From Brevibacterium sp. JSBI002 (lineage in GTDB: Bacteria > Actinomycetota > Actinomycetes > Actinomycetales > Brevibacteriaceae), in contig NZ_CP110341.1 in assembly GCF_026013965.1 (NCBI RefSeq), positions 3,162,001 to 3,226,000 on the forward strand: a stretch of 64,000 nt of DNA, given 5' to 3'. Each line of letters starts with the position of its first letter. Position 1 is the first letter of the stretch. Shown here one piece after another: positions 13,311 through 33,167 of this stretch. Under the pieces are notes generated by a model, which saw only the letters and a program-made list of their open reading frames with translations, was not told where the DNA came from and did no database searches. A program made the position numbers and the translations under genes.

Positions 13311-13321
13311 GTTCGCCTCAG

Positions 13322-13379
13322 TCAACGCGGAGCTCGAAAAAGTCGTCTCCAGCGACGACGATTTCGAGCTTCGCGTTGA
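13322..13379. terminator. bidirectional terminator hairpin
   Basis: Two 26-base arms (13322-13347 and 13354-13379) pair at 23 positions around a 6-nt loop. The arm ends read TCAACGCG... and ...CGCGTTGA. It sits between the convergent GNAT gene and the salvage operon and could stop transcription from both sides. Confidence 0.75.
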
Positions 13380-13390
13380 TTGACACCTTG

Positions 13391-17021: not shown

Positions 17022-17123
17022 TGGTTTCTCCTTGTTGGGGGTGTGGAGTGTGTCGGGTGGTCGGTGGTCAGGAGGTGCGTTTGTTCGTGTGGCCGGGCGG
17101 GCGTTGCCGGTGGCGGCCGCGGT

Positions 17124-18347
17124 TCAGTCGGCCAGTCTCAGTCGGGTGGGTCGTCGGTGGAGGGGTTCGGGCAGACGGAGCGGTCCCTCGCCGGGAGTGA
17201 ACCGGCCCGCGATGCGCGGTCCGATCGCCCCGGTCAGACTGGGCTGCGTGCCGTCGAGTCCGTGCCAGCTCAGCCACCCGATGAGCGCCATGAGGAGCGC
17301 TTCCTTGCTGCCTTCCGGCAGACCGAAAGCCTCATCCGTGCTGGTGAGAACGATGCCCTCATCCAATTCCTCGCCGAGGCGGCGCATCAGCTCCGGGTTC
17401 CTCGTCCCACCTCCCGAGGCGATGACGGTGGTGGCATCGTGCTCGCGGACCGCCTCGGCGATGGTGCGCGCGGTCAGCTCGGTGACCGTGGCGATCTGAT
17501 CATGCTCGCCGAGGTGGGGGTGGGATTCGAGGTACGAGTCGAGATAGGCGGCGTGGAAGAGTTCCTTGCCCGTCGATTTCGGGGCGGGCCGTGCGTAGAA
17601 GGGTTCGGTGAGGAGCTCGGTGAGCAGGTCCGCGTCGACGGTGCCTGCAGCGGCGAGCGCGCCGTCGCGGTCATAGCTCTGCCGGCCGTCGGTGATGCGG
17701 CGGGCGAGAATATCGATGAGGGCGTTGGCCGGGCCCGTATCGAAGGCGATCGGGTCCTGGCCGGGAGTGATGACGGTGATGTTCGCGATTCCGCCGAGGT
17801 TGAGCACCGCGGTCGGAGCCTCGGCCTCGGAGAGCAGGAGGCAGTCGAGCAGCCCGACGAGTGGTGCGCCCTGTCCCCCTGCAGCGACATCGCGGGAGCG
17901 GACATCGGAGAGCACGGGAACACCGAGTCGTTCTGCTATGAAAGCCGGCTGTCCCAGCTGGAGGGTCGAAGTGACCTGGCCGTCGGTGATGTCGTGGCGG
18001 ACGGTCTGTCCGTGGGAGACGACGAGGTCAGGGGTCAAGTCGTGGTCGGCGCAGAGTTCGGACAGGGCGTCGGCGCAGAATCGGCCGAGCCGGGCGTCGA
18101 CGCTGCTGACCAGTGACAACGGCAGATCTGCCGGTTCGAGGAGGCGAAGGATGTCGGCGGAGAGCTGGTCGTCGAATGGGGTTTCGCGTTCGGCGAGGAT
18201 CCGCACGGTCAGGGTGGTGGGGTCCGCGCCGACGAGGTCGAAGCTGGGGGTGGGTTCCGTGTCGCTGATGGGGTCGGGCATGAACTCGGCGATGACGAGG
18301 TCGAGGCCGTCGGCGGAGGTTCCGGTCATGAGTCCGGCGATGATCAT
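17124..18347 (-). CDS. anmK: anhydro-N-acetylmuramic acid kinase
   Basis: A 407-aa cytoplasmic kinase that hydrolyses the 1,6-anhydro bond while phosphorylating, making MurNAc-6-phosphate from anhydro-MurNAc. Signatures are GLMTGTSADGLDLVIAEF at the N-terminus, VSHGQTVRHD near 120, VLNLGGIANITVI near 190, DTGPANALID, and VIASGGGTRNPELMRRL near 345. Length fits the family. The start at 18347 overlaps the GntR stop (ATGA). Anhydro-sugar arises from lytic transglycosylases, so the operon suggests salvage of released wall fragments. Confidence 0.95.
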   Translation of the reverse strand: MIIAGLMTGTSADGLDLVIAEFMPDPISDTEPTPSFDLVGADPTTLTVRILAERETPFDDQLSADILRLLEPADLPLSLVSSVDARLGRFCADALSELCADHDLTPDLVVSHGQTVRHDITDGQVTSTLQLGQPAFIAERLGVPVLSDVRSRDVAAGGQGAPLVGLLDCLLLSEAEAPTAVLNLGGIANITVITPGQDPIAFDTGPANALIDILARRITDGRQSYDRDGALAAAGTVDADLLTELLTEPFYARPAPKSTGKELFHAAYLDSYLESHPHLGEHDQIATVTELTARTIAEAVREHDATTVIASGGGTRNPELMRRLGEELDEGIVLTSTDEAFGLPEGSKEALLMALIGWLSWHGLDGTQPSLTGAIGPRIAGRFTPGEGPLRLPEPLHRRPTRLRLAD

Positions 18348-19120
18348 GGCTGCGTTCCTCCTGTGTGGTCGGTGACGGTGGCGGGAGCGGTGCCGGTGGG
18401 GGCGGCCCCGGATGCGGCCGGAGCGGGGACGGTGAGTTCGGTGCGGACTTTGTAGCGGTCGCCGCGGTAGACCGAGCGAACGAACTCGAAGGGGCGGTCA
18501 TCGGCACCGCGGGAGATGCGTTCGAACAGCAGGGCAGGTGAGAGTTCTTCGACGCCGAGGTGGTGAGCTTCGCCGGCGTCGAGGAGGGTGGGCTCGATCG
18601 TCTGCACGCTGTGGTTGAGGCTAATGCCGAAGTTCCGGCGCAGCAGATCGTAGAAGGACTGGTCCTCGAGGTCGCCTGGGCTCAGACCCGGGACGAGAGC
18701 CGAGGGGACGTGGAGTTCCTCGAGAGCGATCGGTTCGTCATCGGCCAGGCGCATGCGCAGGATCGCGATGACGTCATCGCCTTCGGAGATGTGGAGTCGA
18801 CGAGCGATGTGCGCGCCCGCCTCGGCGACGTCGAAGCTGAGGATATGGGATCCGGGACGCATTCCGCGGGCGAGCATATCCTCGGTGAAAGAGCTCGCGG
18901 CCAGCGGTTGGTCGAGTTTCGGCCCAAGCGCGAAGACGCCCGTGCCGTGTCGCCTGCGGACCATGCCCTTGGCGACGAGTTCGTCGATGGCGCGGCGCAG
19001 GGTCATCCGCGAGATGCCGAGCGTCTCGGCGAGCTGGCGTTCCGGCGGGAACTGCTCACCGGCGGCCATGTCCTCGAGGCGGTCGAGGAGCTGGTCGCGG
19101 ATGGCATGGAATTTCGTCAC
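18344..19120 (-). CDS. GntR-family (HutC subfamily) regulator of the MurNAc salvage operon
   Basis: A 258-aa repressor or activator. The winged helix covers residues ~1-70 (FPPERQLAETLGISRMTLRR, then AIDELVAKGMVRRRHGTGVF), and a UTRA ligand domain follows (MRLADDEPIALEELHVPSAL, ..FYDLLRRNFGISLNHSVQTI). UTRA members such as NagR and DasR bind phosphorylated amino sugars, so MurNAc-6P or GlcNAc-6P is a reasonable effector. It is the first gene of the operon and a palindrome lies 35 bp upstream, implying autoregulation. The C-terminal 25 residues are Ala/Thr/Pro-rich. Confidence 0.9.
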   Translation of the reverse strand: MTKFHAIRDQLLDRLEDMAAGEQFPPERQLAETLGISRMTLRRAIDELVAKGMVRRRHGTGVFALGPKLDQPLAASSFTEDMLARGMRPGSHILSFDVAEAGAHIARRLHISEGDDVIAILRMRLADDEPIALEELHVPSALVPGLSPGDLEDQSFYDLLRRNFGISLNHSVQTIEPTLLDAGEAHHLGVEELSPALLFERISRGADDRPFEFVRSVYRGDRYKVRTELTVPAPAASGAAPTGTAPATVTDHTGGTQP

Positions 19121-19155
19121 ACCACCATTGAGGCACAGGACACACCACTAAATCA

Positions 19156-19168
19156 AGACCACTGGTCT
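19156..19168. promoter_or_regulatory. candidate GntR operator
   Basis: AGACCA-C-TGGTCT is a perfect 13-bp palindrome just upstream of the GntR gene. Its half-sites are those of the DasR/NagR dre element (TGGTCT/AGACCA) but arranged in the opposite order around the centre. The 19121-19421 interval otherwise holds promoters and short TCAAGCG repeats. Confidence 0.6.
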
Positions 19169-19421
19169 ATTTTGCGGTGCCCGTCCCCTCGGTCAGCATC
19201 GCTCTCGCGCCCTCGCTCAAGCGCTCGCTCACTTTCAAGCGCTCCCTTCCCTCGATCAAGCGACGCCGCGAATATGACGTCGTCGACCACGACATATCTG
19301 CGCCCCGGCTTGAACGGCGGGAGTAAAGCGTTCGTCCGAGATCGGGCAACGTTGCGCCCCTGCCCGCGGGTATCGGGAACGAGGGGTTCACGCAGGAGGG
19401 AGAAGTCCCTAGCATGAAGCC

Positions 19422-20084
19422 ATGACTGCATATACCGGACAGAAGCTGCTCGACGCACTCGACTCCCAAGGGCTCAGTGACTGGCAGGGGCTGCCGGACT
19501 GCATCGGCGCCCGGTTCCTCACCGGCGACTTCGCCACCGGGCTTGATCTCGTGGCTGAGATCGGGTCCCTCGCCGAGGCGGCCGGCCACCATCCCGATGT
19601 CACGCTCACTTTCCCTCACGTCGGCATCCGCCTGACCAGCCACGACACCGGTGCGGTGACCGAACGCGACCTCAACCTCGCCGGGCAGATCAGCGAGGCG
19701 GCCGCCTCGGCGGGGGTGAAGGCGGACCCGACCATCCCGACACTGCTCGAACTCGGCCTCGACACCGCGAACCAGGACGCCATCGCCCCGTTCTGGGCGG
19801 CGCTCCTGACCGGGGAAGCGAGCAACGTCTCCGGACCCGACGTCGTCGACCCCTCCGGTCAGATGCCGCTTCTGTGGTTCCAGGACTGCGAGGAACACGA
19901 GGTTCCGCACCAGCGTCTGCACGTCGATGTCTCCGTACCCGCGGCGGTCGCGCCGGAGCGGATCAAGGCCGCGGTCGACGCCGGAGGCACGATCGTCGAC
20001 GAGTCCCAGGCGCCGTCATTCACCGTCCTCGCCGACGCCGACGGCAATCGCGCCTGCGTGTGCACGCTGGCCGCACGCCCGTAA
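19422..20084 (+). CDS. pterin-carbinolamine-dehydratase-like / VOC fusion protein
   Basis: A 220-aa protein with two parts. Residues ~5-90 resemble 4a-hydroxytetrahydrobiopterin dehydratase (PhhB/PCD): AEAAGHHPDVTLTFPHVGIR carries the conserved His-His-Pro and LTSHDTGAVTERDLNLAGQI follows. Residues ~110-215 form a VOC/glyoxalase-like domain (LLWFQDCEEHEVPHQRLHVD, APSFTVLADADGNRACVCTL). This fusion is widespread in actinobacteria and of unknown role; the PCD part may be structural rather than catalytic. ATG 19422. It precedes the aldo/keto reductase gene by about 40 bp. Confidence 0.8.
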   Translation: MTAYTGQKLLDALDSQGLSDWQGLPDCIGARFLTGDFATGLDLVAEIGSLAEAAGHHPDVTLTFPHVGIRLTSHDTGAVTERDLNLAGQISEAAASAGVKADPTIPTLLELGLDTANQDAIAPFWAALLTGEASNVSGPDVVDPSGQMPLLWFQDCEEHEVPHQRLHVDVSVPAAVAPERIKAAVDAGGTIVDESQAPSFTVLADADGNRACVCTLAARP

Positions 20085-20125
20085 GCTGGGCATCGACCTC
20101 TTCCACTCACCCCCAGGGAGTCCGT

Positions 20126-21166
20126 GTGTACCTAGCCGCCGAGAACCGCTACGACTCGATGACCTTCCGCCCCGTCGGCCGATCCGGGCTCGTCCTGCCT
20201 GCGTTGTCACTGGGACTGTGGCATAACTTCGGCGACGATGTCGCCTTCCAGAACCAGCGCGATATCGTTCGTCGCGCCTTCGACATGGGCATCACGCACT
20301 TCGACCTGGCGAACAACTACGGTCCTCCCCCAGGATCGGCGGAGACGAATTTCGGTCGGCTGCTGCGCGAAGACCTCCACCCCTACCGCGATGAGCTCAT
20401 CATCTCGACGAAGGCCGGCTGGAACATGCACCCCGGCCCGTACGGCGGCCCCGGCGGCAGTCGCAAATACCTCCTGGCCAGCCTCGATGCGTCACTGCGC
20501 CGACTCGGCCTCGACTATGTCGACATCTTCTACTCACACCGCCCCGATGCCTCGACGCCGCTCGAGGAGACCATCGGCGCACTCGACACCGCAGTGCGCT
20601 CCGGTCGCGCGCTCTACGCCGGGATCTCCTCATACTCCGCCGCCGATACGGCCCGGGCCTCGCAGATCGCCCGCGACCTGGGCACTCCCCTGCTCATCCA
20701 CCAACCGTCGTACTCGATGTTCAACCGGTGGATCGAAGACGACGGGCTGCTCGAGACCACGAACGACGAAGGACTCGGCGTCATCTGCTTCTCCCCGCTG
20801 GCGCAGGGCCTGCTCACGGACAAGTACCTCGGTGGGGTTCCCGACGATTCGCGCGCAGGCAAGTCGAAGCCGTCGTTCAAGGACGGGTTCCTAAGCGCAG
20901 ACAACCTCGCCCGGATTCGGTCGCTGAACGACATCGCTTCTGCCCGCGGTCAGTCCCTGGCGCAGCTGGCTCTGGCCTGGGCGCTGCGCGATGAGCGGGT
21001 GTCCTCGCTGGTCATCGGGGCCAGCCGCGTCGAACAGCTCGAGCACAATGTCGCGGCTCTCGACGCGGCGCCGTTGAGCGATGAAGAGCTCGCGGCAATC
21101 GACGAGTTCGCCGTCGACTCCGGTGTCGATATCTGGGGAGACGCACGCCGCAGCACCGCGGAGTGA
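20126..21166 (+). CDS. aldo/keto reductase (YghZ / glyceraldehyde-3-phosphate reductase type)
   Basis: A 346-aa NADPH-dependent TIM-barrel reductase. MTFRPVGRSGLVLPALSLGL, the catalytic Asp-Tyr pair in THFDLANNYGPPPGSAETNF, the Lys of ELIISTKAGW, the His of DIFYSHRPD and the cofactor loop VIGASRVEQLEHNVAAL are present. The GPPPGSAE signature places it with the AKR14/YghZ group, which reduces L-glyceraldehyde 3-phosphate and methylglyoxal. GTG 20126 follows CAGGGAG. Same strand as the PCD-VOC gene; it ends two bases before the convergent phosphotransferase stop. Confidence 0.9.
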   Translation: MYLAAENRYDSMTFRPVGRSGLVLPALSLGLWHNFGDDVAFQNQRDIVRRAFDMGITHFDLANNYGPPPGSAETNFGRLLREDLHPYRDELIISTKAGWNMHPGPYGGPGGSRKYLLASLDASLRRLGLDYVDIFYSHRPDASTPLEETIGALDTAVRSGRALYAGISSYSAADTARASQIARDLGTPLLIHQPSYSMFNRWIEDDGLLETTNDEGLGVICFSPLAQGLLTDKYLGGVPDDSRAGKSKPSFKDGFLSADNLARIRSLNDIASARGQSLAQLALAWALRDERVSSLVIGASRVEQLEHNVAALDAAPLSDEELAAIDEFAVDSGVDIWGDARRSTAE

Positions 21167-21168
21167 GG

Positions 21169-22293
21169 TCACCGCGCCGCAGCGAGCAGCCACCCGATCC
21201 GGTTGCTCCAAGCGGGCCGGAAAGCATAGACACAGGCGAGCCGAATGAGGGTGGCCTGTTCGTATGCGCTGACCCTGGCCGGGTCGATCCCCACCGCCGA
21301 GGCGACCCGGGCGATCTCATCGATGACCACGGCCGCCTCGGCGGAGGTCCACAGTCCCTGCTCGATACGCCACCGGGCATGCGCGCGCAGGTTGCCGAGA
21401 TCGAGCGCCCGTTCGCCCCGGCACGCCGTATCGACGTCGAGCAGCCCCGGTCCGGAGACCGGATCCCACATGATCTGCTTGTCGTGCAGGTCCCGGTGGA
21501 TGAGCCCGATCATTCCGTCCCTCGGCGAAGCGGCCCCGTCGTCGAGTGCGACCGTGACCTCTGCGATGAGTTCGTCCACCTCGGCGAGCAGAGTCTCCCC
21601 CCGCCCATTCCGCGCGGTCTCGAGCAGGGGACGGGCGCGCTCACGCCATGTTCGGAGCACCTCGAACTCCTCCGCGGCCCGATGAAACGGCATCGGGGTC
21701 GCCAAATCCGTCGCAGCCGCTGTCACGGTATTGGTCGGATATGACTCTGCCTGAGCCCAGGCGTCGAGGGACTCGGCCCAGGCGCGTGACCAATCCGCGC
21801 CGAGCCTCGCAGGATCGTGGAGTTCGACTCCGGGCACCACGCTGAGCACGACGGTCGAAGAATCCGAACTGAGCACCTGCGGGAGGGTGAAACCGGGAAG
21901 GAACCCTACCGCTCGACGCTGTCCCGCGATGACGCCGGAAGCCTTTCCTTCGCGCACGCATTTGGCGAAGCTGCCGTCGGGCAGACAGACGACGGCGCGT
22001 TTGCCCGGACGGTGGGAGACCAGTCGGCCTCCGTCTGCGAGCAGCCTGGAGAGTCCCGGCAGCTTCGGGTCACGGTCAGCGTCGAGGACCGTCACCCCGT
22101 GTTGCTCGAGATAGCCGACCCGGATCCCCTGGCCAGGAAGAGAAGCCTCCCACGCGATACGGCCGTCTCCTGCCGGCCAGGCTCGGCGCACCGTCCAGTC
22201 CTGTCCGTCGATCGTGACCGCGTCGGGGATATGCAGGGTCGCGCCCCACTTCGTCGCAGCCTGTTCCGTCACGATCTGCTTCGCCACTGTCAT
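21169..22293 (-). CDS. aminoglycoside-phosphotransferase-fold kinase, last gene of the glycan operon
   Basis: A 374-aa protein with the APH/choline-kinase fold in its C-terminal half: Brenner motif LIHRDLHDKQIMWD near residue 265 and the metal site GLLDVDTACRGE shortly after. The N-terminal half has a beta-rich lobe (KRAVVCLPDGSFAKCVREGK). APH-fold kinases phosphorylate small alcohols, sugars or antibiotics. In this operon with glycosyltransferases and an exporter, a carbohydrate or glycolipid precursor is a better guess than drug resistance. ATG overlaps the preceding APH-like gene (ATGA). Confidence 0.8.
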   Translation of the reverse strand: MTVAKQIVTEQAATKWGATLHIPDAVTIDGQDWTVRRAWPAGDGRIAWEASLPGQGIRVGYLEQHGVTVLDADRDPKLPGLSRLLADGGRLVSHRPGKRAVVCLPDGSFAKCVREGKASGVIAGQRRAVGFLPGFTLPQVLSSDSSTVVLSVVPGVELHDPARLGADWSRAWAESLDAWAQAESYPTNTVTAAATDLATPMPFHRAAEEFEVLRTWRERARPLLETARNGRGETLLAEVDELIAEVTVALDDGAASPRDGMIGLIHRDLHDKQIMWDPVSGPGLLDVDTACRGERALDLGNLRAHARWRIEQGLWTSAEAAVVIDEIARVASAVGIDPARVSAYEQATLIRLACVYAFRPAWSNRIGWLLAAAR

Positions 22294-23584
22294 GGTGCGA
22301 CCCCCATCGTCGGGGAGTCCTCACGCAGTGCGGAGCCCGCGAGGTCGATGATCCGCATCGTCTCGTCCCTCCAAGTCACGGAGCAGCTGCGCCAGGGTTC
22401 GAGTCCGGCCACGAGCATCGCCCACGCCGTCCAGGCGCCGAGGTCGGTCTCCTCGCCGCCGGAGGAACGATAACCAGCGATGAAAGGTCGCTCTAGTTGG
22501 TGCACCCGGGGATCGAAGCGGCAGGCAGCGATCCACCGCCCCAGGTCCATCCCGATCGGTCCCCACCCTGACCGGTCCAGATCGATGATCCGGCACTCGG
22601 AATTCGCCAGAAGCACCTGGTCAGGGCTGAGGTCCCCGTGGATCTCCCGCAGTTCCCTGTCCGGTTCGAATCCCCGGCTCGGCCCGAATCCCCGGCTAGG
22701 CCCGAGGCGGCCGCTCAGTTCGGCGAGGAGTCCGGAGATGTCAGCCTCTCGTTCCGGGAGCAGACGAACCAGCGACCGGCTGATGGTCTCGAGTTGGTCG
22801 AGCGGAGAGCCGAGCGCGCGGTCCGCCTCCGCCGAAGCGCCCACCTCGCCTGCCGGGCCGCCGACGTTGTCAGGCACACCGCTTCTGTGCAGTTCGGCGA
22901 TGATCACGCCGACCTCTTCAGCGACGTTCGGATCCGGGTGATCGCTCAGGTCACCGGTCCCCCACCACGGCGAACGAGTGCAGTCCCACGTCCGCCGACG
23001 AACTCGACCGGCAGGCTCGGCAGCTGCGTGCGCTGCCAACGGTCGGCCGCCTCGGCGAGGTGGATCTGGGATTCGGCGGTGATCCGCACGAATTCCGGCG
23101 CCCCGTCGACGGGGGTGTGCTTGAGCAGCAGCCGCCTGGCGGGGTTGTATCCGATGATCGTCAGGTCCCCGCCGAGGTGGTCGAGCGTCCGCGCAATCTG
23201 TTTGCCGATCCTGGGGTCGGCCAGCACGCTGCCGCTGACCAGCAAGGCACCGGTCGCGGCGGGCGAACGCGGGTCGGCCGCCTCGTGGACGATCAGTTCC
23301 TGCCCGTGCCGGGCGGCCCGCCGCCGTGCATTGGCGAGCTTGTCCGGACTCGTCATCACCGCGGTGAATCCCCAATCATCGAACTCGCCGAGGCGTCCGG
23401 GCTCCTCCCGCTGCCACGCAACGATGGCGCTCCGCCCCGGTTTGACGCGGATTCGATGGGGCCGGACCGCGAAGCCGAGGCGCAGGGAGAGCCGTTCGGC
23501 CGATCGCAGCTCATCGATATAGGGCAGCAGGGCGAACCTCGTGTCTGCGAGGTCGTTCACGAGGTCGGACATCGCTGTGGTCAT
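22290..23584 (-). pseudogene. second APH-fold protein with a one-base frameshift
   Basis: The N-terminal half runs from ATG 23584 (TTAMSDLVNDLADTRFALLP) to VEFVGGRGTALVRRGG. The C-terminal half continues in another frame as TGDLSDHPDPNVAEEVGVII and includes the Brenner-like EIHGDLSPDQVLL and the IIDLDRSGWG metal motif. Adding one base to the C5 run at 22959-22963 (G on the coding strand) would restore a ~432-aa protein. Both ends keep ATGA overlaps with neighbours and both halves are well conserved, so this may be a sequencing error or a slippage switch rather than an old pseudogene. Product unknown. Confidence 0.75.
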
Positions 23585-25506
23585 GATGAGGCTCCTGCAT
23601 AGTTCGGCACGCTGCCGACGGTGGGCGGCTCTGTCGGACGGGGATCTGCGACGACAGGCGTCTCGGACGCAGCTGGCGCCGCTTCCGCCGTTCGCCCCGG
23701 CACGCTATCGGCTTCGTCGGCCTGCGAACGGATCCACCGGGCGAAGCGCGAGTCCGCGGCAGCGGCCAGCTCGCTCGGCGCACCGTCCTCGACGATCCGA
23801 CCATCCTCGAGCCACACCACGCGGTCGAGTCCGCGGATCATCGCCACGTCGTGGCTGATGACGATGCTTGTCCGACCCTGTGTCAGCGCGGACACTGAGT
23901 CGGCCACCTCGGCGCGGGTCTGTGGATCGAGTCCGGTCGTCGCTTCGTCGAAGACGACGACCGGGGCGTCGCGGACAAGCGCCCGAGCGATGGCCAGGCG
24001 CTGCCGCTGCCCGCCGGAGAGAGTGTCCCCGCGGTTGCCGAGCGAGGTGTCGTAGCCGTCGGGAAGGGAGCGGATGAACTCGTCGGCACGGGCAGCGCGG
24101 GCGGCGGCGACCACCTCGGCGTCGGTGGCGTCGAGCCTGCCGTAGCGGATGTTCTCGCGCACGCTCGCGGCGAAGAGCACGGACTCTTGGAGGAGGACGG
24201 ACACGTTCTGCCGTAGGGAGGCACGGGTGACGTTGTGGGTGTCGTAGCCGTCAAGGTAGATCGACCCGGAGTCCGGCTGCGACAGCCTCAGCAGGTAACT
24301 CATCAGGGTCGATTTTCCGGCTCCGGAGGCACCGAGGATGCCGACCTTCTGTCCGGCCGGAATGAGCAGGTCTAGTTCGTCGAACAGTGGCCTGCCGTGC
24401 CCGTCGGCCGAGGTGATGCGGTTGAAGACGACGTCGCCGCAGACCGGGCCCATGGACACGGCGTCGGGGGCGTCGGCGATCTCGACGGGTTCGTCGAGGA
24501 GGTCGGCGATCCTCTCCCCCGAGGCGGCCGCGCGGGCGATGCGGCCGGTGTATTTGGCCATGTCCCGCAGCGGTTTCATCGCGATCTTGAGGTAGAGGAG
24601 GAAGAGGACGAGGTCGCCGGGGGACATCGCTCCGCGCAGCACCTGCCACCCTCCGAAGGCGAGAACGAGAGCCTGCGAGATGCCGACGAGAACATCCGTG
24701 GAGCGCTCGAGCCCGGCGGCCAGACGGCGTGCCCGCACCCCGGCTCTGAGTGCGCGTTCGTTGCCGTCGGCGAAATCGCGGGCGACGGTCTTCTCGAGTC
24801 CGTAGGCCTGGACGACGCGGATGGCTCCGAGCGCCTCGGCCGCGGATCCGACCAGTCGGCCCTCGCCCTTGCGGGTGGACCGGGAGGCCTTCGTGATCTT
24901 CGGGGTCGCCACCTTCGACAGCAGTCCGTAGACCGCAGCCGTGACGAGCACGATGGCGCTGAGCACCGGGTCGAGGACGACCATGACGACGAGCAGGACG
25001 GCGAGCGTGATGACATTGCCGACCAGGGGCAGCCCTGCGGTGACGGCGACTTCCTGCAGCCGTCCGATGTCACCGACGAGCCGTTGTGAGGTGTCACCGA
25101 TCGAGGCTTTCGAGTGGTAGCGCAGCGACAGGGATTGGACGTGATCGAACACCCGTGAGCGCAGCTGGGTGGCCACGCGGGCGCCGACGAGGGCGAAGCA
25201 GATCGTCGAGGCGTAGTTCGCCGCTGCCCGTCCGCCGACGATGACGGCCAGGCCGATGGCCACGACCGCGAGCGTTGTGCCGACTCCGGCGTCAAGGCCG
25301 AAGGTCGGGGCGATCTGGGCGCCCAGGGCCGCGGTGACGGCGTCGACGGCGATCTTGATCGGCCACGGTTCGAGGATGCGGAAGACGACATCGGCCAGCA
25401 GCGCGGCCATCCCGCCGATGATCAGCCACGTGTGCCGGCGCAGGTGCGGGCGGATGATGCGCAGGGTCCGCTTCAGCGCAGAGGCCGTGAGCTTCTTGCC
25501 GCTCAT
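23581..25506 (-). CDS. ABC exporter, fused permease-ATPase
   Basis: A 641-aa half-transporter of the MsbA/LmrA type. About six transmembrane helices occupy residues ~15-310 (LIIGGMAALLADVVFRILEP, LAVVAIGLAVIVGGRAAANY). The nucleotide-binding domain has Walker A ILGASGAGKSTLMSYLL, the signature LSGGQRQRLAIARAL, Walker B VVVFDEATTGLDP and the switch His (SIVISHD). The last ~45 residues are Ala/Pro/Thr-rich. ATGA overlaps on both sides bind it into the operon with three glycosyltransferases and two APH-like proteins, implying export or membrane flipping of their product. Confidence 0.9.
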   Translation of the reverse strand: MSGKKLTASALKRTLRIIRPHLRRHTWLIIGGMAALLADVVFRILEPWPIKIAVDAVTAALGAQIAPTFGLDAGVGTTLAVVAIGLAVIVGGRAAANYASTICFALVGARVATQLRSRVFDHVQSLSLRYHSKASIGDTSQRLVGDIGRLQEVAVTAGLPLVGNVITLAVLLVVMVVLDPVLSAIVLVTAAVYGLLSKVATPKITKASRSTRKGEGRLVGSAAEALGAIRVVQAYGLEKTVARDFADGNERALRAGVRARRLAAGLERSTDVLVGISQALVLAFGGWQVLRGAMSPGDLVLFLLYLKIAMKPLRDMAKYTGRIARAAASGERIADLLDEPVEIADAPDAVSMGPVCGDVVFNRITSADGHGRPLFDELDLLIPAGQKVGILGASGAGKSTLMSYLLRLSQPDSGSIYLDGYDTHNVTRASLRQNVSVLLQESVLFAASVRENIRYGRLDATDAEVVAAARAARADEFIRSLPDGYDTSLGNRGDTLSGGQRQRLAIARALVRDAPVVVFDEATTGLDPQTRAEVADSVSALTQGRTSIVISHDVAMIRGLDRVVWLEDGRIVEDGAPSELAAAADSRFARWIRSQADEADSVPGRTAEAAPAASETPVVADPRPTEPPTVGSVPNYAGASS

Positions 25507-26822
25507 GAGATCACCGCCGAGGCGGGGCGCCGTCCCGATCCGGACGTTCCCTCGGCGATGGGACCGGCACCGGTTTCGCCGGCGGCTGTGTCGCCGTCAG
25601 TTCCGGTCACCGGTGCGAGGATCTGTTGGCACCGACGCATCCAGGAGTGGTTGGTCAGTGCCTCGGCCCGGGCGCATGCTCCCATCGTCGCGCGCAGTTC
25701 GGCGTCATCGATGAGTCTCTGCAGGGCGCGGGTGAGATCTGCGGAGTCGGCCGGATCGGTGAGGATTGCGGCCCCGGTTCCTGCGAGCACGCCGGGGATC
25801 GCGCCGACCCTCGATGCAACGACGGGCAGTCCGGCGGCCAGGTATTCGTAGACCTTCAACGGTGAGAAGTAGTTCTCCCCCGCCGGGTACGGGGCCACAG
25901 CGATGTCGAATTCGCGCAGCGCCTCCGGCACGGCTTCGGGCGCCAGAGCACCGTGGAAGCGCACACGCCCACCCAACCCGAGCATGCGCACCTGGTGCTC
26001 CAGGGCCTCGGATTCGGGGCCGTGGCCGACGATGTCGACGCTGAAGTCCCCAACCAGTCCGGCGCAGGCGGCGATGAGCCGGCCCGTGCCGTGCCAGGGT
26101 TTGAGCGTGCCGACGAACCCGATCCGCACCGGACCGTGAGAACTCGGAGGTCCCGCACCGAGGCGGTCCTCCAGTATCGCGCGACCGCTGGGGGCTCCAT
26201 TCCCTTGCCCGCCGAGGCGGCCGTGATCTGACCGTGGAGTGATCCGTTCCGTGTTCACTCCGTTCGGGACGACGCTGACGTCGTCGAGGCCGGGATAGTC
26301 GGTGCGGACCCAGTCGGCGACGAGTTCGCTCACGCACACGATGCGTTCGGCGCCGGCGAAGCTTGCCGCCGTGGCACGGGCAGCATGTTCCGCGTGAACG
26401 AGTCCACGGTGTGTCCGCTGCTCCTCCAGCAGGGGCGCATTGACCTCCATGACCAGCGGCACATCGAGGCGCTGACTGATCCGGGCACCGGCGGTGGAGA
26501 ACAGCGAATACCGTTCGTAGACGAGGTCGAACCCTTGCCCCGAGGCGGCCACCGTGTCGGTGACCAGGTCGGCGAGCATATCGGACAGCCGCAGCAGAGC
26601 GATCTCACGCTGGGAGCGGTCGAGTCCGCGCGGCACCTCGAGTCGGGTGACATCGAGGTCGGCGAGGTCGGCGGGCACGTCGTCATCGGTGCGGGTGCAG
26701 AAGACGCTGACCTCATGGCCGAGTGTTCGGAAGGTGCGCACGACTTCCTGGACGTGGACGCTGGCACCTTTGGTGCCGAAGACCCCGATGCCGGGGTCGA
26801 GAAGGACATAGGCGATTCTCAT
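25503..26822 (-). CDS. family-4 (GT-B) glycosyltransferase
   Basis: A 439-aa GT-B enzyme. The N-terminal Rossmann domain begins MRIAYVLLDPGIGVFGTKGA and includes a KGASVHVQEVVRTF acceptor loop. The C-terminal half has VRIGFVGTLKPWHGTGRLIA and the donor site ENYFSPLKVYEYLAAGLPVV (E-x7-E-like). A Gly/Arg-rich insertion lies near residues 200-225, and the C-terminal 25 residues are low-complexity. Retaining GT4 enzymes use NDP-sugars on the cytoplasmic side. It is coupled by ATGA to the next GT4 and to the ABC exporter. Confidence 0.87.
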   Translation of the reverse strand: MRIAYVLLDPGIGVFGTKGASVHVQEVVRTFRTLGHEVSVFCTRTDDDVPADLADLDVTRLEVPRGLDRSQREIALLRLSDMLADLVTDTVAASGQGFDLVYERYSLFSTAGARISQRLDVPLVMEVNAPLLEEQRTHRGLVHAEHAARATAASFAGAERIVCVSELVADWVRTDYPGLDDVSVVPNGVNTERITPRSDHGRLGGQGNGAPSGRAILEDRLGAGPPSSHGPVRIGFVGTLKPWHGTGRLIAACAGLVGDFSVDIVGHGPESEALEHQVRMLGLGGRVRFHGALAPEAVPEALREFDIAVAPYPAGENYFSPLKVYEYLAAGLPVVASRVGAIPGVLAGTGAAILTDPADSADLTRALQRLIDDAELRATMGACARAEALTNHSWMRRCQQILAPVTGTDGDTAAGETGAGPIAEGTSGSGRRPASAVIS

Positions 26823-28270
26823 GACACTGACTCCATTTCACGGGCGGTCGCGATGGCGGTGGCCGCGGACTCGCTCGGTGGGGTCGCGACATCTGTCGCA
26901 ACGGTGGCCCGATCTGCGGCACGGTCGCCGACGCGGGCTGTGGCGCGGTCGGTCGCTCGCTCAGCGGCTGCGGCGGCCAGTCGGCCGAGCTGCCCGGCCT
27001 GGACGGTCGAGTCGTGCAGCCGGTACACCCGGTCACGGGCGGCATCGGTGACGGCACGGATTGCGGTCGGATCATCGCTGAGGGCGGCGGCCACCTCGGC
27101 GATGGTGGAGGCGATGTTCGCCTCATCGGAGCCGTCGACGAGCCACCCGGTCCGGCCGTGGTCGATGACCTCGGGCACGGCGGTGACGGCCCCGGCGATG
27201 CAGGGAATTCCGGTGGCCATGCCCTCGAGCAGCACGGTGGGCAGTCCGTCGGCGTTGCCGTCGGAGCCGATGACGAACGGGGAGACGAGGAGGTCGTGGT
27301 CGGTGAGCATGTCGCGGACCTCGGCCTGGGTCAGCGCTCCGTGGAAGGCGACGAGACCGTCGAGTCCGAGCGTGCGGGACTGGGTCCTCAGCTCCTCCTC
27401 GAGGGGGCCGGTGCCCACGAGGTCCAGACGGCAGGTCGCGCCCTCGCTGCGCAGGCGGGCGAGCGCATTGAGGAGGTGGGCGAAACCCTTCTTCTCGACG
27501 AGGCGGCCGACGGCCAGCAGCGAGGGAACCTCTCCCGTCACGCCCCGCTTGGGCCGGTAGGGGAAGCGGTCGATCTCGAGGCCGTTGCGCACGACGACGA
27601 TCCGGTCGGCCAGCTCAGGGCCTAGCACCCGCGACAGGTAGCGGCGATTGAAATCGCTGATCGCGATGACGTGGTCGGCGTCCGCAGTCTTGCGGGCCAG
27701 ATCGGTGAGCACGACATCCTCGTGGAAGATGTCCTTCGCATGCGTGGTGAAGGAGTACGGGATCCCTGTCAGCGCCGAGGCGGCCCGGGCCACGGTCGTC
27801 GACACCGACGCGAAGTGCGCGTGCAGGTGGGTGACCTCGTGGTCGAGGGCCAACCGGGCGAGGGTGAGAGCTTGGATCGCATCATCGTGGCCGAGTTCCA
27901 TGAGCTCGCCGAGGTGGTCCGGCACTGCCGCGGCCACGCGCGGTTCCGCTGCCGCCTCGGCGAAGGTCTGCCAGAAGCTGCGGGCACTCGAGGGTCGGTC
28001 GATGTGGATGACCTCGGCGCGGACGCGGGCGAGTTCGGGGTGGAAGCGGGCATCCGTGCTCGGGCGCAGGGAGAAGATCACAAGGTCTTCACCGGCGGCT
28101 TCGCGGGCGAGGATCTCGGAGACGATGAAGGTCTCGGAGAACCGCGGGTACATCTTGAGCACGTAGGCGCGGCGGCCGGGATGTCTTTCCGTCGGAGCGG
28201 TCGGGGTTGCCGGTGGGTGCGGAGTCGGCGTGGCCGGTGTCGAATTGGTTGATGTCTGTTCAGACAGCAT
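26819..28270 (-). CDS. second family-4 glycosyltransferase
   Basis: A 483-aa GT-B enzyme. A Thr/Pro-rich N-terminus (~35 residues) precedes RRAYVLKMYPRFSETFIVSE, typical of colanic-acid-type GT4 proteins. Then come VTHLHAHFASVSTTVARAAS, LLAVGRLVEKKGFAHLLNAL and the donor motif NADGLPTVLLEGMATGIPCI. I start at ATG 28270, which overlaps the upstream gene by 11 bases; longer readings lie inside that gene. The tail is rich in Ala/Arg/Thr. Acceptor and sugar unknown. Confidence 0.85.
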   Translation of the reverse strand: MLSEQTSTNSTPATPTPHPPATPTAPTERHPGRRAYVLKMYPRFSETFIVSEILAREAAGEDLVIFSLRPSTDARFHPELARVRAEVIHIDRPSSARSFWQTFAEAAAEPRVAAAVPDHLGELMELGHDDAIQALTLARLALDHEVTHLHAHFASVSTTVARAASALTGIPYSFTTHAKDIFHEDVVLTDLARKTADADHVIAISDFNRRYLSRVLGPELADRIVVVRNGLEIDRFPYRPKRGVTGEVPSLLAVGRLVEKKGFAHLLNALARLRSEGATCRLDLVGTGPLEEELRTQSRTLGLDGLVAFHGALTQAEVRDMLTDHDLLVSPFVIGSDGNADGLPTVLLEGMATGIPCIAGAVTAVPEVIDHGRTGWLVDGSDEANIASTIAEVAAALSDDPTAIRAVTDAARDRVYRLHDSTVQAGQLGRLAAAAAERATDRATARVGDRAADRATVATDVATPPSESAATAIATAREMESVS

Positions 28271-29585
28271 GGCTGGTCTCCTCGAGTGCGGTGGGGAAAC
28301 TGGTGGTCGTTCCGGCGGTCGCAGCGGTCGCGGGAGTCGGTTCAGTCGTGAGGTCGGCAACCGTCGCGTGTCGTTCGGAGCGGGCCTCAGCGATGAGCTC
28401 AGCGGCCAGGCGGGGAACGGTCGAGAGTCCGGTGAGATCGATATGGGAGCGGTCGGCGAGACGTCCGCCCTGGCCGGCGAACCATTCGCTGAGAACATCG
28501 GCGTCGAGGTTGTCGATCGTCAGAGCGTCGACCGCTCCGGCCGCGGCGAGGGCGAATGCCCGCCGGGGCTGTTCGGCCCGGTGTCCCTTGCGGGGGACGA
28601 CGAGTGCGGGGGTATCGGTGGCCATGAGCTCGGCCAGAGTGTTGTAACCGCCCATGCACACGACCGCGTCGGCAGCGGCGACGAGTCCTGGGATGTCATC
28701 GCAGTGACGGATGACTGTGGTGGCCGCACCGGCACGGGCACGCAGCCGTTCGAACTCCTCGGTGTCCATCTGCGGACCGGTGACGACGAGGTGACGGTGA
28801 CCATCGGGCGGTTCGGCGTCCACAGCGATCGAGGCGAGGCTGCCACCATCGGATCCCCCGCCGAGGCAGGTGAGGACGAAGGGCTGGGTTCCGGTCCCTG
28901 CCGACTCGACGTCTGCCGTCAGGTCACTCGCCGCCTCGGTGCCTGCCGCCAGAACGCCGCCGTCATCGGGGCGGTCCTGAGACAGGTAGCCGGTGGTCAT
29001 GGCTTTGGCTGCCAGGGCCGCGGGCACTTCGCCGGTGGAGCGGGGATCGTAGACGTCCGGGTCCCCGTAGATCCAGACTTCGTCGAAGGATTCGGCCACC
29101 CGTGCGGACCCTCCGACCTTCTCCCATTCGGCAGCGATGACGGATGGGGTGTCGAGGACTTCGCGTAGGCCGAGGACCGTGCGGCAGCCGTGGCCGCGGA
29201 CCTGGTCGATGGCCTCGGCGAGCTCACCGCCGATGCCGAAGGGGTGCCGGTCGACGATGAAGAGCTCAGGTCGCTGCTGGTCGAGGATTGCCGAGATCGC
29301 CGCCGCCCGCAGCGCCCGCAGTCCCTGCATCGAGGAAGCGAGTGACCGCGGGACGTAACCGCCGGGGGCAGGGGTGACTCCGGGCAGGATCACCCAGTCC
29401 CATCCGTCAGGCAGGTCGAATCGCGTGGCCTCGGGACTGCTGGCGATGAGCAGACCGGAGACCTCGCGGCCGGTCAGCGCCGGCAGGTCCCGGGCCACGG
29501 CGAAGGCCAGAGCCCGGTTGCGGCGGATGTGGCCCAGTCCCAGCGAGTCGTGGGAGAACAGTGCGATTCTCAATCGTCGTCTCAT
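28260..29585 (-). CDS. GT28/MurG-like glycosyltransferase, first gene of the glycan operon
   Basis: A 441-aa GT-B-type protein. The N-terminal RIALFSHDSLGLGHIRRNRA resembles the GxGH glycine loop of MurG and MGDG synthases. The C-terminal VVCMGGYNTLAELMATDTPA followed by LVVPR is the GGxxT donor-binding motif, and FIVDRHPFGIGGEL lies mid-protein. GT28 enzymes often glycosylate lipids at the membrane. ATG 29585 follows GATGTATGAGACGAC with weak ribosome-binding complementarity. The 63-bp space between it and the response regulator gene contains an 11-bp-period direct repeat, so this is likely the regulated promoter. Confidence 0.85.
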   Translation of the reverse strand: MRRRLRIALFSHDSLGLGHIRRNRALAFAVARDLPALTGREVSGLLIASSPEATRFDLPDGWDWVILPGVTPAPGGYVPRSLASSMQGLRALRAAAISAILDQQRPELFIVDRHPFGIGGELAEAIDQVRGHGCRTVLGLREVLDTPSVIAAEWEKVGGSARVAESFDEVWIYGDPDVYDPRSTGEVPAALAAKAMTTGYLSQDRPDDGGVLAAGTEAASDLTADVESAGTGTQPFVLTCLGGGSDGGSLASIAVDAEPPDGHRHLVVTGPQMDTEEFERLRARAGAATTVIRHCDDIPGLVAAADAVVCMGGYNTLAELMATDTPALVVPRKGHRAEQPRRAFALAAAGAVDALTIDNLDADVLSEWFAGQGGRLADRSHIDLTGLSTVPRLAAELIAEARSERHATVADLTTEPTPATAATAGTTTSFPTALEETSHAV

Positions 29586-29606
29586 ACATCTCAGCTTGTC
29601 GGCTGT

Positions 29607-29625
29607 GATTAAGATGAGATTAAGA
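29607..29625 (-). promoter_or_regulatory. 11-bp-period direct repeat, candidate response-regulator site
   Basis: GATTAAGA at 29607-29614 and 29618-29625 (TCTTAATC on the operon strand) repeat with an 11-bp period, the spacing usual for OmpR/PhoB-type dimers. It lies between the response-regulator stop and the first glycosyltransferase. The binding protein is inferred from adjacency. Confidence 0.55.
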
Positions 29626-29648
29626 CGCGGATGAGAAAGATCTTAGGT

Positions 29649-30308
29649 TCAGTCCACGCGGTATCCGAAGCCCCGCACGGTGGTGACGAAATCGGAGCCG
29701 AGCTTCTTGCGCAGATACCCGATGTAGACGTCGACGACGTTCGAGCCTGGGTCGAAGTCGAATCCCCACACATGAGAGAGCAGCTGTTCGCGGGAGAGGA
29801 CGTTGCCTCGGTTGCGCAGCAGGATCTCGGCCAAGGACAGTTCCCGGGCCGAGAGTTCGACGAGACGGTCTCTGACCCACACCTGCCGCTTGAGCAGGTC
29901 GATGCGCACCTCATCGCGGATGAGCTCCGTGACCTCCTGCTCCTGCGGGCTCTCCTTGAGCCGCAGCCGGACCCGAGCCAGCAGCTCCGCGAACCGGAAG
30001 GGCTTGATCATATAGTCGACCGCCCCGGACTCGAGAGCGTAGATCGTGTCGTCCGGGTTGTCCCGGGCAGTGAGCACGAGCACCGGCAGTTCGGGTCGCC
30101 GCTCACGCAGCTGCCCGAGTACGGTGAAGCCGTCGAGGACGGGCAGACCGATGTCGAGGATGACAAGCGCGAAGTCCCCGGTCAATGCCAGATCTCGACC
30201 GGTGAGGCCGTCGGCGGCGATCTGCGGATTGAACCCGGCGGCGGTCAGGCCCTTCGAGATGAAGGCGGAGATCCGCGCCTCGTCCTCGATCACGAGAATG
30301 CTCTTCAC
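29649..30308 (-). CDS. OmpR/PhoB-family response regulator
   Basis: A 219-aa two-domain regulator. The receiver has acidic ED near residue 8, the phospho-acceptor in VILDIGLPVLDG near 52, the Thr of VLVLTARD and the Lys of DYMIKPF. The C-terminal winged helix (LSARELSLAEILLRNRGNVL, then SREQLLSHVWGF and the wing VRGFGYRVD) binds DNA. GTG 30308 overlaps the kinase stop (GTGA). It is paired with the kinase at 30305-31804 and lies directly upstream of the glycosyltransferase operon. Confidence 0.95.
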   Translation of the reverse strand: MKSILVIEDEARISAFISKGLTAAGFNPQIAADGLTGRDLALTGDFALVILDIGLPVLDGFTVLGQLRERRPELPVLVLTARDNPDDTIYALESGAVDYMIKPFRFAELLARVRLRLKESPQEQEVTELIRDEVRIDLLKRQVWVRDRLVELSARELSLAEILLRNRGNVLSREQLLSHVWGFDFDPGSNVVDVYIGYLRKKLGSDFVTTVRGFGYRVD

Positions 30309-31804
30309 TTCTGTCCTTTCGGCAGGATCATGCGGAACTGTGCACCGATGGTGGTCTGGTCGAGCACGACCGTGCCTCCGTGCGCCTCGGCGATGGCGGA
30401 GATGATCGACAGCCCCAGACCGAAGCCGGCCCCGTCGGTCGACCCACGGCAGAAACGGTCGAAGATGTCCTCGGCGATATCGTCGGGCACCCCCTTGCCT
30501 TCGTCGCGGACCCAGATGTGCACGGATTCGGAGTCATCCCGGGCACCGAAGACGATCTTCTGACCCTCCTCGGTGTGCTCGACGGCATTGGACGCCAGCT
30601 GCAGAAGCGCCTGCGTCAGGCGCTGTCGATCCCCGCGGAAGCTCAGCGATTCGGGAACCTCGAGACCCCATTCGCGGTCTCCCAGTCCCTTGGCCTTCGC
30701 CAGGGAGTCGGACACTACCCCGCTGAGGTGCACCTCGGCGAAGCGCACGAAATCAGGACGTCGGGCACGTGCCAGCAGGAGCAGCTCCTCGACGAGGCGA
30801 CCCATCCGATCCGTCTCATCGAGCAGCATCGCCCGAGTCTCCTCGACGTCTCCGACGTCCTCTGCATTCATCGTCTCGAGGTGACCGCCGAGGATGGTCA
30901 GCGGGGTGCGCAGCTCGTGCCCGACGTCGTCGAGGAAGCGCCGTTGAGCTTCGAAGGCCGACTCGAGGCGGTCGAGCATCTCGTTGAAGGTGTGCCCGAG
31001 TTCGGCGATGTCATCGTGGCCCTTCGTCTCCAGGCGACTGCTGAGGTCACCGCCGGATATCGACTGCGCCGTCCGCCTCAGCTCGGTCACGGGTGACAGC
31101 AGGCGGCGCGCCAGGAGCGAGGAGAGCCCCGCGATGAGCAGGGCGGCGGCGAGCGCGACGACGACGTAGATCTGCATGAACTGCACGAGGTCGGAGTGAC
31201 TGGCGGAGACGTTGTGGACGACGACGAAGGCGCCCGCCCCGTTCGTCGCGGCCGCTCCGCCCGCCACCTCGCTGACGCCCTTCGTCCGGCTCGTCGAATC
31301 GGTGGGCGCGGTCTGGGTGTCCGTGGTCGTGCCCGCCCCCGCCTCGGTGCCGGTGATGGGCAGAACGAATCCTTCGTGCTCGACGCCGTCGACCGTCAGA
31401 CTGATCTCCCCGCCGGTCTCGGCGGCACCGGCAACGGCCTTCTCGAATTCGCCCGAACTCCCGAGCAGCCCTTCCGGTTCGCCCTGATAGAGCACGCGGC
31501 CGTCGGTGAGGAACGCGAACAGCACCTCGTCCTCATCTGGCCTGTTCTGGGCGAGGAAATTGCTGAGGATCTCATCGACGGAGGTGAACGGCTTACCGGT
31601 CTGCGGATCGATCCCGTTCTCCGAGAAGGTCCGCATCTCGTCGACCTCTTGGGACATCGAGGCGGTGATCCGACTGGAGACGTTGCTCGACTCGACGGTG
31701 TAGAGGATGAGTCCGACGATGGAGAGGGTGAGCACGGACAGTGCGGCGACGGTGATGGTCAACCGGTTCTGAACGGTCAGCCCGACGCGCCGTTCAGTCG
31801 TCAT
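30305..31804 (-). CDS. sensor histidine kinase (HAMP-HisKA-HATPase)
   Basis: A 499-aa membrane kinase: helix 1 (ITVAALSVLTLSIVGLILYT, ~13-35), an extracytoplasmic domain of ~190 residues with a Gly/Thr-rich insert, helix 2 (IYVVVALAAALLIAGLSSLL), HAMP (LSPVTELRRTAQSISGGDLS), H-box DVGHELRTPLTIL, N-box LASNAVEHT, G1 DEGKGVP and G2 GAGFGLGLSII. I start at ATG 31804, where the conserved TTERRVGLTVQNRL begins; it overlaps the acidic-tail gene by 11 bases. The signal sensed is unknown; an outer-surface or wall cue would fit the downstream glycan genes. Confidence 0.92.
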   Translation of the reverse strand: MTTERRVGLTVQNRLTITVAALSVLTLSIVGLILYTVESSNVSSRITASMSQEVDEMRTFSENGIDPQTGKPFTSVDEILSNFLAQNRPDEDEVLFAFLTDGRVLYQGEPEGLLGSSGEFEKAVAGAAETGGEISLTVDGVEHEGFVLPITGTEAGAGTTTDTQTAPTDSTSRTKGVSEVAGGAAATNGAGAFVVVHNVSASHSDLVQFMQIYVVVALAAALLIAGLSSLLARRLLSPVTELRRTAQSISGGDLSSRLETKGHDDIAELGHTFNEMLDRLESAFEAQRRFLDDVGHELRTPLTILGGHLETMNAEDVGDVEETRAMLLDETDRMGRLVEELLLLARARRPDFVRFAEVHLSGVVSDSLAKAKGLGDREWGLEVPESLSFRGDRQRLTQALLQLASNAVEHTEEGQKIVFGARDDSESVHIWVRDEGKGVPDDIAEDIFDRFCRGSTDGAGFGLGLSIISAIAEAHGGTVVLDQTTIGAQFRMILPKGQK

Positions 31805-32207
31805 CGTCGTCCCCATCATCGCCGTCGTCGTCCCCGTCATCATCGTCGTCGCCGTCGCCGTCGTCATCGGCGGCAGGGACTTCACGAGGCGGATTGGGCA
31901 CCGGTTCGTAGGAGTGCTCGATCTCCTCAGGTTCTCGCGAATCCTCGTTTGCGGAGTCGGCGGCATCTGAGTCGGCGGCATCTGAGGCGCCGTCGTCGGA
32001 GGAGTCAGTCGAGTCTTCGTCGGCAGAGCTGTCGGCGTCTGAATCTGAGGTCTTGGAGGTCTCCGTCGGTTCGGGGGTGACTTCCACCGGACTGAGGTCC
32101 GGCTGCTCCGGTTGAGTGGTGTTGCGCACGATGAGCACGGTCAGCAGTGCGAGCATGACGACGAGACCGGCCACAATCCAGCCGATGATCTTCGATCGTC
32201 CACCCAT
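31794..32207 (-). CDS. single-pass membrane protein with Asp-rich tail, upstream of the kinase
   Basis: A ~137-aa protein: a short basic N-terminus (GGRSKIIGW), one helix (IVAGLVVMLALLTVLIVRN), a Ser/Asp/Glu-rich stalk and a C-terminus of about 25 residues that are nearly all Asp or Gly. The tail should be extracytoplasmic and could bind divalent cations. The stop overlaps the kinase start by 11 bases, so the two are co-expressed. Start is uncertain: ATG 32207 is used, with TTG 32237 as an alternative; no good ribosome-binding site. The gene could encode a sensor accessory. No family recognised. Confidence 0.6.
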   Translation of the reverse strand: MGGRSKIIGWIVAGLVVMLALLTVLIVRNTTQPEQPDLSPVEVTPEPTETSKTSDSDADSSADEDSTDSSDDGASDAADSDAADSANEDSREPEEIEHSYEPVPNPPREVPAADDDGDGDDDDDGDDDGDDGDDDDD

Positions 32208-32336
32208 ACCGTCCACATTGCCCAAGGCCTGCGGCAATGTCGAGCCGGAGGCGATGAGAGTCTTCTTAGGTGGAGTGTTCGGGCGCCTGTGATACCGTAA
32301 GCGCCGACCGCCACGACGACCCGCAGGAGCCCACCG

Positions 32337-33167
32337 ATGAGCGACGATCGCGCGGACCGCGACGAGGCTGAGCCCGTAACCGCAGACTCCTCATCGACGA
32401 CGCCCGAGTCCACCGAGCCGAACGACGGTTCCGCGCAGGCAGACGCTTCCGCGACCACCGAGCCGGATGCCAGCTCCGCGGCCGAGTCCAAGGAGAATCC
32501 GTGGGCGGCGATCAAACCTTGGCAGGGCAAGGCTGCCGGCCTTGACAAGCTGCTGCTGTTCATCATCATCGGCGTCCCGCTCATCTACCTCGGCCTCATG
32601 CCGCTGCGACCGTGGATGCTCGTCAATGCCCCGGTCGTCCAGGAATTCATCAACGGCGCGAAGACCTCGATCGTCGCTGCCGCCGCCTATGCCAGGGTCG
32701 GTGAGATCCCGCTGTGGCTGGTCATCGTCGCCGGCTTCATCGGCATGGCCAAACTCGATTGGGCGTTCTGGCTGGCCGGTCGCTGGTGGGGCGACGGTGT
32801 GCTGCGGCTCTTCGCGCAGAACGAACGCCAGCTCAAACGCATCAACCAGCTGAAGAAGATCCCGAACTGGGCGCTGTTCCTCATGACGCTGATCTCGCGC
32901 TGCCCGGGCATCCCGGGCACCCTCGTCTACCTCGTCGCCGGGTGGACGCGGATGCGGCTGTCGCTGTTCCTTGTCGCCGACCTCCTCGGCTGCCTCATCT
33001 TCACGCTCATCTGGACCTTCCTGGGCTACCAGCTCGGAGAGGCCGCCGTCGACATCCTCAAGATCATCGACAAGTACGCCCTGTGGCTGACGCTGGCCCT
33101 CATCGTCGGCATCTTCGCCATCAGCTTCTTCAAGGAATACCGCAAGCAGAAGAAGGAACAGGTCTGA
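32337..33167 (+). CDS. VTT/DedA-family membrane protein
   Basis: A 276-aa protein: an acidic, Ser/Thr-rich cytoplasmic N-terminus of ~60 residues, then the VTT (SNARE-associated/DedA) core with LLLFIIIGVPLIYLGLMPLR, VIVAGFIGMAKLDWAFWLAG, the conserved LISRCPGIPGTLVYLVAGW segment carrying the Arg and Gly-x-x-G-x-x-x-G-like motif, and a terminal helix with KEYRKQKK tail. DedA relatives flip polyprenyl or phospholipids. ATG 32337 follows AGGAG. It is divergent from the sensor locus and converges on aroE with three bases between stops. Confidence 0.82.
   Translation: MSDDRADRDEAEPVTADSSSTTPESTEPNDGSAQADASATTEPDASSAAESKENPWAAIKPWQGKAAGLDKLLLFIIIGVPLIYLGLMPLRPWMLVNAPVVQEFINGAKTSIVAAAAYARVGEIPLWLVIVAGFIGMAKLDWAFWLAGRWWGDGVLRLFAQNERQLKRINQLKKIPNWALFLMTLISRCPGIPGTLVYLVAGWTRMRLSLFLVADLLGCLIFTLIWTFLGYQLGEAAVDILKIIDKYALWLTLALIVGIFAISFFKEYRKQKKEQV

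Follow-up and report, generated by a model that had tools for sequence, protein, structure and literature searches.

What do six tightly packed genes for three glycosyltransferases (GTs), one ATP-binding cassette (ABC) exporter and two APH-fold kinases, lying behind a two-component pair, make in Brevibacterium? We addressed this question in a 64,000-nucleotide stretch of Brevibacterium sp. JSBI002 (contig NZ_CP110341.1, positions 3,162,001 to 3,226,000; hereafter the window), for which an earlier note, made from the letters alone, had proposed an operon that builds, phosphorylates and exports a glycolipid or a glycosylated small molecule. Here, we found that the cassette is real and widespread, occurring in at least three phyla. 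We assign a probability of about 0.5 to the reading that it is a conserved, transferable pathway, in which the three GTs would assemble a short, acidic saccharide containing uronate, the APH pair would phosphorylate it and the ABCB-type exporter would release it.

The block lies on the minus strand in the order GT28, GT4b, GT4a, ABCB-type exporter, APHa and APHb (Pfam and open reading frames), and a sensor histidine kinase and then a response regulator precede GT28 in the same direction, with a gap of 63 bases between response regulator and GT28. Neighbours in the block are joined by 4-base overlaps, as are the two genes of the sensor pair, and GT28 and GT4b by one of 11 bases. In order, strand, overlaps and sensor pair the operon is as the earlier note had described it, except that APHa is not one open frame in this genome. 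The features are:

30305 to 31981, minus strand: sensor histidine kinase (HAMP, HisKA, HATPase_c), longest frame (Pfam)
29649 to 30308, minus strand: OmpR/PhoB-type response regulator (Pfam)
29608 to 29624, minus strand: CTTAAT-N5-CTTAAT direct repeat ahead of GT28, predicted response-regulator box (motif scans)
28260 to 29585, minus strand: GT28-type glycosyltransferase (PF04101) with a GT-B fold model (Pfam, structure model)
26819 to 28270, minus strand: GT4b, GT4-family glycosyltransferase, ATG 11 bases inside GT28 (Pfam)
25503 to 26822, minus strand: GT4a, GT4-family glycosyltransferase (Pfam)
23581 to 25506, minus strand: ABCB-type half exporter (PF00664 and PF00005; Pfam)
22946 to 23584, minus strand: N-terminal part of APHa, where the frame closes (open reading frames)
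22290 to 22991, minus strand: C-terminal part of APHa in the other frame (PF01636, HGDLSPDQ), start of the conserved part undefined (Pfam)
21169 to 22293, minus strand: APHb, APH-fold kinase (PF01636, HRDLHDKQ motif; Pfam)

Is this arrangement peculiar to Brevibacterium? A GT28 profile (A1, E 1e-30), used for the genus, order and phylum counts, matched 37 of 57 genomes of the genus, 62 of 347 genomes of the order (23 of 104 genera) and, counting the match alone, 18 of 396 phylum-level genomes. Outside Brevibacterium, 39 of the 46 order-level GT28 loci carry all six genes in the same order and on the same strand; two end at a contig edge within or after GT4a, and five (L196-L200) are rearranged, one of these being additionally cut by a contig end. 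A second, named set consisted of 80 GT28 loci kept out of 293 relatives found, and overlaps partly with the order-level set (L052 and L155 being one identical stretch), so that the counts are not independent. Here, the full six stand in the same order and strand in 40 loci, 13 from Brevibacterium and 27 from others, among them Brachybacterium, Micrococcus, Corynebacterium, Microbacterium, Cryobacterium, Rothia, Millisia, Isoptericola, Gemmataceae, Planctomyces, Cereibacter, Rhodobacter and Paracoccus; Planctomycetes and Alphaproteobacteria are therefore represented as well. A further 33 are of a Rhodobacteraceae type, with GT28, GT4b and a second GT28 in a block without exporter or kinase, and seven are partial, several of them at contig ends. 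An APHa profile (E 1e-20, match alone) matched 2 of 398 genomes of Pseudomonadota and 19 of 199 of Planctomycetota, each count including the query centre itself. Some gene calls in the high-GC DNA of the relatives are too long, and the calls were used solely to locate neighbours. The idea of an operon local to Brevibacterium was dropped, as the block is conserved across the order and the named loci; the earlier note had looked to conservation of the whole set in several genera, and the neighbourhood survey (39/46 order-level loci, together with the named loci) found it in many genera and at least three phyla.

Some loci vary this gene content. Of the rearranged actinobacterial loci, L198-L200 hold GT28, the exporter, GT4b and at least two APH-fold proteins in other orders, and L196 and L197 hold GT28, exporter and APH, a search for GT4b giving no match. 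Loci of the Rhodobacteraceae type (L079, L081 and similar) add a further GT, deacetylase and methyltransferase genes and often a histidine phosphatase, and several of them lie close to importer-type ABC genes.

Do the six genes belong together? In the 75 chosen loci, APHa and APHb form a single protein in 23, and GT4b and GT4a are fused in one open frame in five (L163, L169, L205-L207). Over these loci, pairwise distances between the six proteins show correlations of 0.76-0.92, which is what joint inheritance would produce, with a contribution from shared species history. Conserved order, gene fusions and correlated divergence support the view, already taken in the earlier note for the GT, ABC and APH genes, that the six act as one functional set.

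A GT28 search of plasmids matched Escherichia records. On p1RM9088, an IncFIA/IncFIB plasmid typed as conjugative, GT28, GT4, GT4, ABC, APH and APH follow each other in the same order as in Brevibacterium, and annotation and Pfam place an 'alginate export family protein' (PF13372) and then a nucleotide sugar dehydrogenase (PF03721) after the block:

p1RM9088, 12001 to 22179 (L119): six-gene block with AlgE-type and UDP-glucose dehydrogenase type genes

This 10.2-kb stretch is present in 18 of 5,426 complete E. coli genomes, always plasmid-borne and with at least 99% identity. The cassette is probably transferable, and its spread probably reflects horizontal transfer. Upstream of the block, p1RM9088 carries a fimbrial region of F4 (K88) type.

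Are the two APH-fold proteins likely kinases? APHb and the C-terminal part of APHa reach 37.6 and 32.7 bits with PF01636, above the gathering cut-off of 23.2. The APH catalytic motif is HxDxxxxN; in APHa and APHb the catalytic Asp is invariant and Gln replaces the Asn, such that 17 of 17 APHb sequences read HRDxxxxQ and 11 of 11 APHa sequences HGDxxxxQ. K111, H266, R267, D268, Q273, D286 and D288 of APHb are invariant in its 17 sequences. In this genome APHa spans two frames (22290-23584), with the HGDLSPDQ motif in the frame of the C-terminal part ending at 22290, and in five Brevibacterium relatives (L039-L042, L044) it occupies one frame. The split may be a sequencing error or a real mutation, the two being indistinguishable here; because of it the pathway may lack the APHa protein in this strain, and the frame change could cripple the cassette. 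The structure-match lists are evidence of fold only, absence from them being uninformative, and in the fused APH model residues 1-400 were barely covered by the structure comparison. No NCBIfam family was found for APHb at E 0.01, and the C-terminal part of APHa scored 18.7 bits with the MTRK model (cut-off 275) and 17.1 bits with LxmK (cut-off 315). A role of the APH proteins as aminoglycoside-resistance genes was dropped, as no NCBIfam resistance model was reached.

Is the block under the control of the pair in front of it? Both PF00072 and PF00486 (receiver and Trans_reg_C) are above cut-off in the response regulator, which places it in the OmpR/PhoB class, and the gap ahead of GT28 contains CTTAAT-CTCAT-CTTAAT. 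Allowing up to one mismatch, this box has one match in the window and none in 100 shuffles, and it is unique in the 3.74-Mb genome. At least 10 of the 12 box bases are retained in 22 of 37 distinct promoters from Brevibacterium, and in 21 of these 22 the position is the same. Other actinobacterial genera show a TCATS-N6-TCAT repeat, also with an 11-base period, in 15 of 23 promoters from the named set and 20 of 43 from order and family level (partly overlapping sets), compared to shuffle means of 0.06 and 0.07, respectively, and a maximum of 2; other periods from 6 to 17 occur in at most two promoters, and the opposite strand gives 0 and 3. In Brevibacterium, 7 of 36 promoters also have the TCATS repeat with a period of 17, and two promoters carry a mixed form. 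The response regulator of the window is 49-66% identical to cluster-linked regulators of other actinobacterial genera (L115: 44%), and its best paralogue in its own genome reaches 39%; the alphaproteobacterial cluster-linked regulators, at 32-40%, are no closer than paralogues. To judge from these comparisons, it looks like a regulator dedicated to the block in Brevibacterium, and would bind the CTTAAT box and activate the operon. The two-component control that the earlier note proposed is thus upheld as a prediction for Brevibacterium, by a box found once in the genome and a cluster-linked regulator.

According to excerpts of PMC3973317, PmrA, a regulator of the OmpR/PhoB family, binds CTTAAT and CCTAAG half-sites five bases apart. 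The window box resembles the site of enterobacterial PmrA in its two CTTAAT-like hexamers with five-base spacing, although the response regulator stays below the cut-off of the PmrA model (169.5 versus 330), as it does for cztR/silR/copR (200.1 versus 279.2). A scan for promoters and terminators returned one promoter-like site, on the other strand (0.5 expected), and two terminator-like sites (3.3 expected). The longest frame of the sensor kinase has two hydrophobic stretches by hydropathy (residues 74-92 and 273-291), and its true start probably lies further inside. Just upstream of this frame, and overlapping it, is a 147-residue frame (31794-32237, minus strand) with one hydrophobic stretch and an Asp/Glu-rich tail. 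Divergent from the sensor pair, a DedA/VTT-domain protein is encoded at 32337-33167 (plus strand); this gene adjoins the pair in 12 of 13 named Brevibacterium loci, the exception being L049, where the contig starts nearby, and none was detected in the other named loci, outside Brevibacterium.

Which product would the cassette make? Counted within 3 kb of the block, in flanks of limited extent, nucleotide-sugar dehydrogenase genes accompany 13 of the 46 order-level loci, 7 of another 23 named actinobacterial ones and 6 of the 35 of Rhodobacteraceae type, where by our own estimate from the density in the window's genome chance would place one in well under 2% of loci. The best equivalogs are UDP-glucose 6-dehydrogenases for the four actinobacterial and the E. 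coli enzymes scanned, and UDP-ManNAc or UDP-GlcNAc dehydrogenases for two alphaproteobacterial ones, all scores being below the equivalog cut-offs and above that of the nucleotide-sugar-dehydrogenase subfamily. Three such enzymes in the window's genome exceed the family cut-off, none of them encoded near the block, and no AlgE-type gene is found near the block in Brevibacterium. In Paracoccus (L101), an AlgE-type protein 33% identical to that of the E. coli plasmid is encoded in the neighbourhood, and a polysaccharide lyase in that of the S. meliloti relative (L261). Because of the dehydrogenases, AlgE-type genes and polysaccharide lyase in relatives, we favour an acidic, soluble saccharide as product, for Brevibacterium by inference from these relatives. 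From the earlier note a glycan pathway stands, while its 'glycolipid or glycosylated small molecule' is less supported, since the partners in relatives favour an acidic saccharide, even though none lies near the Brevibacterium block. The three GTs would then extend a single chain on a carrier or primer that is made elsewhere, yielding a short saccharide with uronic acid, presumably in Brevibacterium too; the APH-fold pair is predicted to phosphorylate this glycan, and the ABCB-type exporter would carry the phosphorylated saccharide out of the cell.

A rather unlikely alternative is a membrane-anchored phosphoglycolipid, in which the GTs would add sugars to a lipid, with its head group phosphorylated by the kinases and the ABC protein acting as flippase in the manner of MsbA and the lipopolysaccharide (LPS) core kinases. 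GT28 is by sequence closest to MurG, which acts on a lipid carrier, yet at 35.5 bits it is below the cut-off of that model (TIGR01133, 250.25). The exporter, too, matches MsbA-type models without reaching their cut-offs (TIGR02203 for the MsbA lipid A exporter, 341.9 versus 602 bits; an MsbA-related model, 372 versus 780), as it does with ChvA/NdvA (TIGR01192, 266 versus 585.4; NF010178, 325.1 versus 733); NdvA/ChvA and MsbA are ABCB-type half exporters too, but scores far below the cut-offs and different partner genes separate them from the block. LPS core kinases are kinase-fold enzymes that phosphorylate a growing oligosaccharide before its export by the ABC protein MsbA, and resemble the block in placing kinases ahead of ABC export; APHa and APHb differ in matching PF01636, and no LPS-kinase family was found in the Pfam scan. 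Against the lipid stand the loci examined, where no lipid-modifying gene recurs beside the block, and the AlgE-type gene directly behind it on E. coli plasmids, which suits a hydrophilic saccharide.

That same Alginate_exp protein speaks for a polymer, a capsule or exopolysaccharide whose long chain iterative GTs would make and the exporter secrete, as excerpts of PMC9601211 describe AlgE as the outer-membrane barrel of alginate export; so does the polysaccharide lyase near the rhizobial relative. We nevertheless consider a polymer unlikely, as neither the block nor the annotated E. coli plasmid stretch has a polymerase, synthase, OPX or PCP gene. It appears highly improbable that the block makes a glycosylated natural product and that the kinases serve self-protection.

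How does a saccharide cassette of this kind compare with known systems? The Wzx/Wzy, ABC-transporter and synthase pathways share cytosolic GTs and export with it, and alginate export the AlgE-type barrel (excerpts of PMC9601211), but the block has an ABCB-type exporter and two APH-fold kinases. A phosphoglycosyl transferase starts the Wzx/Wzy and ABC-transporter pathways (excerpts of PMC12802240). No priming phosphoglycosyl transferase, Wzx/Wzy or Wzm/Wzt was found by Pfam among the six proteins or in the annotated E. coli plasmid block, the rest of the genome not having been searched, and polymerase, flippase and synthase are absent from the six proteins by Pfam; the block is thereby set apart from the pathway types described in the excerpts of PMC9601211 and PMC12802240. 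A rhizobial relative on pSymB-type replicons (L122 of Rhizobium, L261 of S. meliloti) shares GT28 followed by GT4, with an ABC exporter nearby and a nucleotide-sugar dehydrogenase (L122) or polysaccharide lyase (L261). It differs in a GT28-like third GT, in having no APH-fold kinase among its annotations, and in that cyclases and a protein of cyclic-nucleotide-binding or Crp/Fnr type take the place of the two-component pair. A surface saccharide of S. meliloti under cGMP control has reportedly been studied, in work that literature searches did not bring up; we treat the link as no more than a lead. Excerpts of the Clr-target papers PMC5498481 and PMC10127613 name no gene of the block, and among the matches listed by literature searches aimed at the gene set there was no description of it. 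Tentatively, and with clear doubt, we suggest a further glycan assembly and export route, shared horizontally by Actinobacteria, Planctomycetes, Alphaproteobacteria and plasmids of E. coli: three cytosolic GTs and a paired, often fused APH-fold kinase would yield a phosphorylated uronate oligosaccharide for ABCB export (and, in cells with an outer membrane, for passage through an AlgE-type channel), without phosphoglycosyl transferase, Wzx/Wzy, KpsMT or synthase.

Several observations weigh against the reading of a regulated acidic-saccharide cassette. The chemistry of the product is inferred; 33 of 46 order-level loci and all 13 named ones of Brevibacterium have no dehydrogenase gene within 3 kb of the block. 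Only two of eight Gram-negative six-gene loci (L119 and L101) have an AlgE-type gene, that of L101 lying about 3 kb upstream of the block on the opposite strand. The position of the N-lobe Lys is not Lys in 4 of 11 APHa sequences, and because of this replacement APHa may not be a catalyst. A good CTTAAT box is missing from 15 of 37 Brevibacterium promoters, and of 39 order-level six-gene loci only 7 have a response regulator close to the block, so that the sensor pair stands outside the core and was dropped as a core part of the cassette. Finally, several planctomycete and alphaproteobacterial members are metagenome-assembled genomes.

If true, a compact, transferable saccharide pathway would give bacteria an added way to finish and export surface or secreted sugars. 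The HxDxxxxQ kinase pair would serve as a genome marker for this pathway, which can be tested directly by way of its kinase fusions, its dehydrogenase and AlgE-type partners and its single-site box.
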